From Pseudoxanthomonas yeongjuensis (GTDB lineage Bacteria > Pseudomonadota > Gammaproteobacteria > Xanthomonadales > Xanthomonadaceae), in the NCBI RefSeq assembly GCF_010093345.1, contig NZ_PDWT01000001.1, forward strand, positions 248,001 to 312,000: a DNA stretch of 64,000 bases, given 5' to 3'. The notes below the pieces were generated by a model. It saw only the letters and a program-made list of their open reading frames with translations. It did no database searches and was not told where the DNA came from. The translations under genes were made by a program, and so were the position numbers. Each line of letters begins with the position of its first letter. Position 1 is the stretch's first letter. Positions 51,172 through 52,489 of the stretch are shown in pieces.

Positions 51172-51211
51172 GCCTTGCGCCAACGGCTTCCCGCATGCGA
51201 CGATGCGGGCA

Positions 51212-51301
51212 ATGAAGATCAACCTGCACTCGTACGCCAGCTCTGCCCGGATGGCCTCCGGCATGACTTCGCGTGCGCGCCGACCGGAACCGCTTATCTA
51301 G
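51212..51301 (+). CDS. putative arginine-biosynthesis leader peptide
   Basis: 29-codon ORF starting at ATG 51212 that ends SRARRPEPLI with Arg codons CGT, CGC and CGA at positions 21, 23 and 24, and one more Arg at 13. The TAG stop directly abuts the GCTGGGT strand that can pair in the attenuator. Its location between the small secreted gene and argF' and its Arg cluster suggest a ribosome-stalling leader rather than a working protein. Confidence 0.5.
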   Translation: MKINLHSYASSARMASGMTSRARRPEPLI

Positions 51302-51363
51302 CTGGGTCGCCGGACGTGTGTGCTTGTTCAACCGGAACCCAGCCTGGCGCTGGGTTTTCTCGT
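51300..51363 (+). promoter_or_regulatory. candidate arginine attenuator (antiterminator and terminator)
   Basis: AGCTGGGT at 51300-51307 can pair with ACCCAGC at 51337-51343 (antiterminator), while AACCCAGC (51336-51343) pairs with GCTGGGTT (51349-51356) to form a terminator followed by TTCTCGTTTCT. The two folds are mutually exclusive. It lies 24 bp before the argF' ATG. Confidence 0.6.
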
Positions 51364-51386
51364 TTCTGATCCTTTGGAAGTCACAA

Positions 51387-52391
51387 ATGAAACATTTCTT
51401 GAATACGCAGGACTGGTCGCGCAACGAACTGGACGCCTTGCTGACCCAGGCGGCGCTGTACAAGAAGCACAAGCTGGGCGATGAACTGAAGGGCAAGTCC
51501 ATCGCCCTGGTGTTCTTCAATCCATCGCTGCGCACGCGCACCAGCTTCGAGCTCGGCGCCTTCCAGCTGGGCGGCCATGCGGTGGTCCTGCAGCCGGGCA
51601 AGGACGCGTGGCCGATCGAATTCGGCGTCGGCACGGTGATGGACGGCGATACCGAAGAGCACATCGCCGAAGTGGCCAAGGTCCTGTCGCGCTATGTCGA
51701 TCTCATTGCGGTGCGCGCCTTCCCGAAGTTCATCGACTGGTCGCAGGACCGGCAGGACCACGTCCTGCGCGGTTTCGCCCAGCACGCGACCGTGCCGGTG
51801 ATCAACCTGGAGACCATCACCCATCCTTGCCAGGAACTGGCCCACATACTGGCCTTGCAGGAACACTTCGGCACACCGGACCTGCGCGGCAAGAAATACG
51901 TGTTGACCTGGACCTACCACCCCAAGGCGCTGAACACCGCGGTCGCCAACTCCGCGCTGACCATCGCCACGCGCATGGGCATGGACGTGACCCTGCTGTG
52001 CCCGACGCCCGAGTACATCCTCGACGAACGCTACATGGGCTGGGCCGAGCAGAACGTGGCCGAGAGCGGCGGCTCGCTACGCATCAGCCACGACACCGAC
52101 AGCGCCTACGCCGGCGCCGACATCGTCTACGCCAAGAGCTGGGGCGCGTTGCCGTACTTCGGCAACTGGGAACCGGAAAAGCCCATCCGCGACCGGTACA
52201 AGCACTTCATCGTCGACGAACGCAAGATGGCCCTGACCAACAACGGCGTGTTCAGCCACTGCCTGCCGCTGCGCCGGAACATCAAGGCCACCGACGCGGT
52301 CATGGATTCGCCGCAATGCATCGCTATCAATGAAGCCGAGAACCGCCTGCACGTGCAGAAGGCGGTGATGGCGGCTTTAGCGCAGAAGTGA
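51387..52391 (+). CDS. argF': N-acetylornithine carbamoyltransferase
   Basis: Carbamoylates N-acetyl-L-ornithine to N-acetylcitrulline, the Xanthomonas-type step that replaces ornithine carbamoyltransferase. The 334-aa protein has [20 protein letters not shown] (carbamoyl phosphate site), [28 protein letters not shown] and [11 protein letters not shown] 51387 follows the attenuator. The neighbour argE' (acetylcitrulline deacetylase) confirms the acetylated route. First gene of argF'-argG-argE'-argB-argC-argH and pro genes. Confidence 0.95.
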
Positions 52392-52489
52392 GTGGAGAGG
52401 AGTGAGGAGCGAGCGAAAGCGCTTGCCCCCTACTTCTCCCGCACCTCCGCTTCTACTCACTCCTCACTCCTCACTCCTCTCCACTCACT
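52387..52489 (+). repeat. long perfect-arm hairpin spanning the argF'-argG junction
   Basis: A 23-bp perfect stem starts AGTGAGTGGAGAGGAGTGAG at 52387-52409 and its complement ends at 52489; the loop is about 57 nt. The argF' stop codon TGA (52389-52391) lies inside the first strand. The right arm is flanked by further CTCACTCC repeats. A striking structure in the operon mRNA. Confidence 0.85.

Follow-up and report, generated by a model that had tools for sequence, protein, structure and literature searches.

The classical attenuators of the His, Thr, Leu and Trp operons combine a leader ORF carrying control codons, a stop codon beside strand 2 and two mutually exclusive stems, 2:3 and 3:4. 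In the window, by which we mean the whole stretch of 64,000 nucleotides from Pseudoxanthomonas yeongjuensis that was analysed, the region in front of argF' resembles these gammaproteobacterial systems in its leader layout and in the intrinsic terminator preceding a biosynthetic gene, but differs from them in its putative control by arginine, in having a fixed core rather than a run of control residues, in a start that appears near-leaderless in the window's family (f1) and in its single CGA. We consider that it very probably controls transcription of the argF' arginine cluster by ribosome-mediated attenuation. The fungal arginine attenuator peptide halts the ribosome at its stop codon when arginine is high, which prevents scanning; it shares with the argF' leader a conserved peptide before an arginine gene, whereas the stall proposed here would come at low arginine.

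The nearest functional precedent is orf34 (SpeFL) of speF in Salmonella, which is likewise a conserved short peptide with consecutive Arg codons and in which, according to the available text, ribosome pausing at low arginine alters the RNA structure (PMC6386406). Unlike the argF' leader, orf34/SpeFL has a different peptide and controls a polyamine enzyme via Rho, RNase G and translation rather than via an intrinsic terminator (PMC6386406). RAPP arrest peptides resemble the argF' core in that their residues are fixed as far as the peptidyl site and their motif contains Arg-Ala, but those in the text available have a Pro-Pro end and occur with genes for protein localization, while arrest at the argF' core is a proposal (PMC10951233). 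Among the literature matches listed, we found no report of an arginine attenuator before argF'; subscription papers lay mostly outside that search, and a prior report is possible. Related uORF attenuators, e.g. for cysS, are described in PMC8632094, in whose available text the string "Xanthomon" does not occur, and the accessible part of PMC1262725 reports no conserved upstream RNA structure for arginine operons of Actinobacteria and T-boxes on arginine genes in other species. What is new here, judging from the aligned sequences, is a core fixed as a peptide and a last Arg codon that is nearly always CGA.

The argF' leader and the Xoo5 RNA

The first gene of the arginine cluster is argF', encoding N-acetylornithine carbamoyltransferase (51387–52391, + strand; NCBIfam NF003384, 628 bits), and its closest named relative in the ArgF' search is that of Pseudoxanthomonas gei (94% identity). 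The ORFs after it look like argG, an ArgE-like hydrolase, acetylglutamate synthase-kinase, an acetyltransferase, argC, argH and proB. By eye, the gap between argF' and argG (52392–52480) holds an imperfect inverted repeat with arms rich in GAGTGG/GAGGAGTGAGG and CTCACTCCTC, possibly a small palindromic element.

The original prediction had placed in front of argF' a 29-codon ORF with Arg codons near its end, its TAG touching a GCTGGGT strand, and two exclusive stems sharing ACCCAGC, all of which we could confirm. The ORF lies on the + strand at 51212–51301, with ATG at 51212 and TAG at 51299–51301, reads MKINLHSYASSARMASGMTSRARRPEPLI and has a homologue in every one of the 130 argF'-linked loci described below, window included. 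Its Arg codons are codon 21 (CGT), codon 23 (CGC) and codon 24 (CGA), with a fourth at codon 13 (CGG). Codons 12–24 (51245–51283, + strand) form the conserved core A-R-M-A-S-G-M-T-S-R-A-R-R, and the CGA that ends the Arg block, the proposed stall codon, is at 51281–51283 on the same strand. Strand 2, GCTGGGT, the 5' arm of the putative antiterminator, follows at 51301–51307 (+) and shares its first base with the last base of the TAG. Strand 3, ACCCAGC (51337–51343, +), is common to antiterminator and terminator; strand 4, again GCTGGGT, is at 51349–51355 (+) and is followed by TTTTCTCG. The intrinsic terminator hairpin and the start of its T-rich tail (51334–51358) were the one site found by the terminator scan, on the + strand. 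As shuffled sequences gave a mean of 0.6 sites (sd 0.9), the scan alone is weak evidence, and it is the retention of the terminator in all 130 loci that lifts it beyond chance.

The leader RNA without its terminator matches Rfam family RF02242, Xoo5 (51210–51326, + strand; 66.1 bits, E 1.7e-11, gathering score 50). The match spans the whole length of the model, is the only one in the genome at E 0.001 or better, and is the only Rfam hit of the leader over the gathering score, no other leader or riboswitch model being matched. Rfam gives the family the type "Gene; sRNA", and its model ends 5' of the terminator. According to the available text of PMC3039613, sRNA-Xoo5 was cloned from X. oryzae as a 124-nt RNA and examined there by 5' RACE and Northern blot; of its two bands, at about 130 and about 100 nt, the longer was confined to early growth, whereas the shorter was also seen later. 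There it sits between PXO_00354 and PXO_00353, directly upstream of the latter, which Table 4 lists as N-acetylornithine carbamoyltransferase (PMC3039613). The main text contains no word starting with "Arginine", and the portion covered gives no function for Xoo5 (PMC3039613).

We thus have the same RNA filed as an sRNA gene in Rfam and read here as the argF' leader. The terminated RNA is predicted to be 156–159 nt long in 14 loci (L002–L015) and 149 nt in the window, and the 3' end of the reported Xoo5 aligns 5' of the terminator. Since the reported RNA is shorter than the predicted one, trimming of the terminated RNA must be assumed, and Xoo5 is probably part of the argF' attenuator leader in such a trimmed form. 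A small RNA acting in trans, as the Rfam type has it, would agree with the discrete species seen by Northern blot and RACE (PMC3039613, as far as available) and with sizes below that of the terminated leader, but 130 of the 131 fetched matches lie upstream of argF', all 130 of them are followed by the terminator, and conservation tracks the codons of one frame; we regard it as very unlikely. On the attenuator reading, RF02242, which Rfam lists as an sRNA, would gain a function.

Two observations adjoin this. The published table, in the part seen, reports Xoo5 as not found in Xylella, and a small-genome genus of the window's family (g4, 2.5–2.8 Mb; L176, L172, L167) retains the core peptide. 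Separately, Table 4 of PMC3039613, so far as it could be consulted, lists lower levels of the argF' (PXO_00353) and argG (PXO_00352) proteins when a different sRNA, Xoo1, is mutated, and the arginine cluster may have a second regulatory input of this kind.

A transcription start downstream of 51301, named in the original prediction as evidence against it, is contradicted by the 5' end of the Xoo5 RNA, which was determined by RACE in another species, X. oryzae, and aligns to 51210, 2 nt before the leader ATG (PMC3039613, available text). In the window, a candidate promoter (51175–51204, + strand) consists of TTGCGC at 51175–51180, an 18-bp gap and GACGAT at 51199–51204, 7 nt 5' of the ATG. The pattern TTGM-N2-N15..19-NANNAT-N4..12-ATG occurs in 90 of 113 f1 loci and in all three loci of family f2, against a rate of 0.03% in shuffled sequences, and was found in none of 30 loci of family f12 and none of seven of f3. 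The f1 gap is 17 bp in 88 loci and 18 bp in two, the window's gap being 18 bp, and the pattern lies 6–10 nt before the ATG. A sigma-70 scan with a stricter consensus found no promoter, and a 4-base Shine-Dalgarno-like match was present in 32 of 146 cases. The close promoter pattern together with the RACE end from another species suggests that the f1 leader peptide is near-leaderless; in the window's own species, this promoter would be the functional one and the start would lie accordingly.

Conservation and constraint of the leader peptide

In the order, RF02242 was matched in 162 of 397 genomes at E 0.001, and 84 of the 397 exceeded the gathering score. We fetched 131 loci from those 162 genomes, and 130 of these, 102 in f1 and 28 in f12, lie upstream of argF', a gene for the synthesis of the leader's proposed control amino acid (NF003384). 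All 130 have a leader ORF with the peptide core including SRARR; Met at core position 0 is not universal, missing in 24 loci. The remaining locus, L120, a second match of genome G136, scored 31.9 bits, under the gathering score, lacks argF' and reads as antisense to a lepA-like gene; we took it for a chance match and left it out.

A peptide profile of the core, A1, matched 266 of the 397 genomes of the order: 128 of f1, 3 of f2, 7 of f3, 124 of f12 (by subtraction) and 4 weakly. No f1 genome is among the 20 unmatched genomes listed, which open with f3. The weak matches in f11, f8 and f7 (L187–L190, E 4.0e-4 to 7.7e-4) have no argF' adjoining and were rejected; further weak second matches occurred in G313 and G351. 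Across a sample of the Gammaproteobacteria as a class, A1 matched 3 of 274 genomes, all of f1. The RF02242 and A1 searches favour loci that carry the core; other samples were chosen by ArgF' without regard to the leader. Among the best 80 of 573 ArgF' relatives, 78 had strict leader matches, and the other two, L192 (ASGTTSRTRRP) and L248 (ASGITSRARRP), have the leader with M4 changed; six of six f12 loci picked by ArgF' position carried core, CGA and terminator. Conservation of ORF and stems, for which the original prediction had proposed an alignment of relatives, thus extends over close relatives and other families of the order. In f12, Arg density of the leader alone is not above that of shuffles (p 0.11 to 0.58), and for that family the attenuator case hence rests on conservation.

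The first reading of the locus was not wrong but incomplete, as it missed the Rfam family, the near-leaderless start suggested for f1 and the selection on residues other than Arg. The core consensus is AxxA[SA]GMTSRARR, its M, T, S and A being nearly fixed across f1, f12, f2 and f3. Over core codons 3 to 10 of 115 unique cores, pS was 0.318 and pN 0.009 (pN/pS 0.027), whereas the two other frames of the same stretch gave pN/pS > 4 and the flanking codons, −11 to −4 and 12 to 14, gave 1.18 and 1.19. (The unique-core counts of 110, 115 and 121 used here come from different sets of loci and different lengths of aligned sequence.) By these comparisons the core is strongly selected as a peptide, well beyond the conservation that an attenuator ordinarily requires, and the peptide-level constraint adjoins the proposed stall site.

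Such strong conservation would also be expected if the leader peptide were a small protein with a role in trans and attenuation came second to it, as the available text of PMC7298713 reports for peTrpL. But the N- and C-terminal parts evolve freely, with pN/pS of about 1.2, no Pfam match was found for 30 members and no NCBIfam match for two peptides, and the strong profile matches examined adjoin argF', unlike those of the weak ones (E 3.6e-4 or worse) that were looked at, which makes a role in trans highly improbable. Conservation of an RNA structure or a DNA site with an accidental ORF seems hardly credible. The Rfam model does pair much of the core region, and the third bases of TCG (106 of 110 unique cores) and of CGA are nearly fixed; at R7, A8, R9 and R10, on the other hand, codon positions 1 and 2 are invariant and the third varies (entropies of 0, 0 and 1.06 at R7), the A of CGA reads as unpaired in the Rfam structure line and is unpaired in 75 of 122 predicted folds, and in outgroup families Arg-dense ORFs take the place of the core.

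The codons of the Arg block are used unevenly. CGC or CGT is found at R7 in 120 of the 121 unique cores and at R9 in all 121, while R10 is CGA in 117 of 121, compared with 31 of 2059 Arg codons (1.5%) in argF'. Two of the four exceptions (L183, L186) have CGA as the next codon, and L327 of f3, outside the 121 cores, has CGT at R10. Of the 78 named loci, 77 have CGA at R10 and one has CGG. CGG accounts for 1 of 363 codons at R7, R9 and R10 and for 33 of 92 at the non-conserved Arg −1.

The fixed core and the CGA bias at the last Arg codon suggest that nascent chain and slow codon together sharpen the stall. In a Salmonella his-leader assay, CGA at either site of an Arg-Arg pair led to strong de-attenuation, according to the available text of PMC4046918. 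For Salmonella orf34, the accessible part of PMC6386406 reports like arginine responses for CGA-CGA and CGC-CGC pairs, from which it follows that a rare codon is not needed there.

A further reading, compatible with the attenuator rather than opposed to it, is that the AxxA[SA]GMTSRARR chain is a sequence-specific arrest peptide that itself stalls the ribosome, like SecM, the RAPP peptides, TnaC or SpeFL, possibly sensing arginine or a pathway intermediate instead of tRNA charging alone. The contrast in pN/pS between core and flanks and the near-fixed M, T, S and A over four families, with the Arg-dense leaders of outgroups lacking the core, would fit this, as would the end of the conserved residues at the Arg block. 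The RAPP motifs are also resembled by an R-A-x that occupies the peptidyl site as the following residue comes in, as given in the text available (PMC10951233). Speaking against it, the CGA bias acts at the level of the codon and fits tRNA charging, P11 is present in 108 of 121 cores and so is not fixed, L248 departs from the core at M4, and L192 does so at both M4 and A8. We hold such arrest to be a serious possibility that falls a little short of even.

Pairing, folding and a kinetic switch

The attenuator reading makes demands on spacing and pairing, which we examined counting pairs, like codons, per locus and not per evolutionary event. In 122 of 130 loci, the distance from the first base of CGA to the start of strand 2 is 20 or 21 nt. 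At least seven contiguous 2:3 pairs are possible in 123 of 130 loci, against 402 of 6500 strand-2 shuffles; an upstream control segment gave at least seven contiguous pairs in none of 130, and seven loci lack seven contiguous 2:3 pairs. The middle bases of strands 2, 3 and 4 are T-A-T in 84 f1 loci and C-G-C in all 28 f12 loci, with T-G-C in seven f1 loci (a G-U in 2:3), T-A-C in five and others in six; the middle 2:3 pair is broken in L128 (C-A) and L081 (G-G). This covariation is mostly one difference between f1 and f12 and not many independent events.

A ribosome covers about 15 nt past the first base of its P-site codon, and when CGA occupies the A site its leading edge would lie some 8 nt before strand 2. 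With the ribosome placed at the stop, the predicted folds contained the terminator in 122 of 122 cases. With the ribosome on CGA, the minimum free energy fold of the RNA 3' of it still contained the terminator in 102 of 122. We accordingly rejected thermodynamic switching as a sufficient mechanism: because the terminator is favoured even with the ribosome on CGA, the switch must be kinetic.

The course of events we propose presumes that the leader is translated. In f1, transcription would probably begin just a few bases 5' of the leader ATG, which would allow a ribosome to load at the very 5' end. When charged tRNA-Arg is plentiful, the ribosome would cross CGY-GCN-CGY-CGA and halt at the stop on or beside strand 2; with strand 2 covered, 3:4 would form, transcription would end and a short RNA would be left, from which Xoo5 probably derives by trimming. 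When charged tRNA-Arg is scarce, the ribosome would stop on the Arg block, leaving strand 2 free to pair with strand 3 before strand 4 is completed, and the cluster would be transcribed. The nascent chain would contribute in that the fixed peptide and the slow CGA together make the stall sharper.

Arg-dense leaders in other families and the distribution of ArgR

As a matched control in the window's family, the Thr leader (RF00506) had to be discarded: it was matched in 22 of 79 genomes, none over the cut-off, and none of the 7 loci inspected out of 28 had a Thr/Ile-rich ORF. The His leader (RF00514) was matched in none of the 79 genomes, and 28 hisG loci, from 28 of 30 genomes, showed nothing recognizable as a His-run leader, and the HHH strings present there belonged to other contexts. 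The comparison used in place of classical leaders was with the argF' upstream regions of outgroup families f4 to f11, fetched by ArgF' position only (the contig-end scraps L346 and L400 being left out).

Outgroup families without the core peptide mostly have Arg-dense leaders (RRRR, RRRRR) and a terminator before argF'. Terminators were found in 52 of 63 loci: 3 of 3 in f4, 2 of 2 in f6, 22 of 22 in f7, 12 of 12 in f8, 12 of 23 in f9 and 1 of 1 in f10, the other 11 f9 loci and the single f5 locus having none. The terminator of L370 in f9 looks unlike the other eleven. An ORF with at least three Arg in eight codons ending near the antiterminator strand was present in 46 of 63 loci, e.g. ALRRRRRLSQRRAG and VVVRRRRPLRQMELFG; in the terminator-bearing loci such ORFs number 2 in f4, 2 in f6, 19 in f7, 12 in f8, 10 in f9 and 1 in f10. 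L338 (f4), scored as lacking an ORF in this tally, does have one, ALRRRRRSSQRRAG*. Compared with shuffles, the densest Arg ORF had p ≤ 0.05 in 33 of 63 outgroup loci, where about 3 were expected, although the densest ORF is sometimes not the leader (e.g. L368, L399) and GC-rich sequence makes Arg codons common. Pairing like 2:3 of at least seven was more frequent than expected from shuffles in f4 (3 of 3 loci), f6 (2 of 2), f7 (15 of 22), f8 (12 of 12) and f10 (1 of 1), but was not above chance in f9 (4 of 12, with 3.0 expected). The Arg blocks of outgroups use CGA in 62 of 200 codons and CGG in 5 of 200. The arginine leader-peptide attenuator of the original prediction is supported by the conserved ORF and stems and, in addition, by these Arg-dense leaders in the same place.

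ArgF' of the core families f1, f12, f2 and f3 is 71–100% identical to that of the window (full-length), and that of the Arg-dense families 60–70%. As the core families are the nearer to the window, a single replacement of the Arg run is the simplest history, and we infer as the direction of change that the Arg run of other families gave way to the fixed core in the window's lineage. We put forward tentatively, at slightly under even confidence, that in one lineage a classical Arg run was replaced by a sequence-specific arrest peptide with a slow CGA, the attenuator becoming or being a nascent-chain sensor that is near-leaderless in f1. The passage from Arg-dense leaders of outgroups to a fixed peptide offers a natural series for testing a change from codon-sensing to peptide-sensing.

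The repressor ArgR (PF01316) was found in 8 of 121 sampled genomes, all of f11, and had no match in the window's own genome, in which 9 of 14 controls were matched. The f11 carbamoyltransferase is 39–43% identical to ArgF' of the window; its upstream regions had a terminator in none of seven cases, and one, L389, has an Arg-dense ORF (p 0.04). The attenuator reading would supply arginine control to a large bacterial group without ArgR in the sample searched.

Some outgroup leaders share residues beyond their Arg codons. Those of f8 (L342–L344, L366, L374, L377, L384–L386, L396) share VV[VA]RRRRPxxxMELFG or VV[VA]RRNRRR..PGCEVL and the like, and f8 thereby seems to be another lineage whose leaders conserve residues other than Arg. 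In f7, the leaders of L332, L348–L350, L355, L361–L364 and L380 share RRLRRP or LRR[PS]...PGWV.
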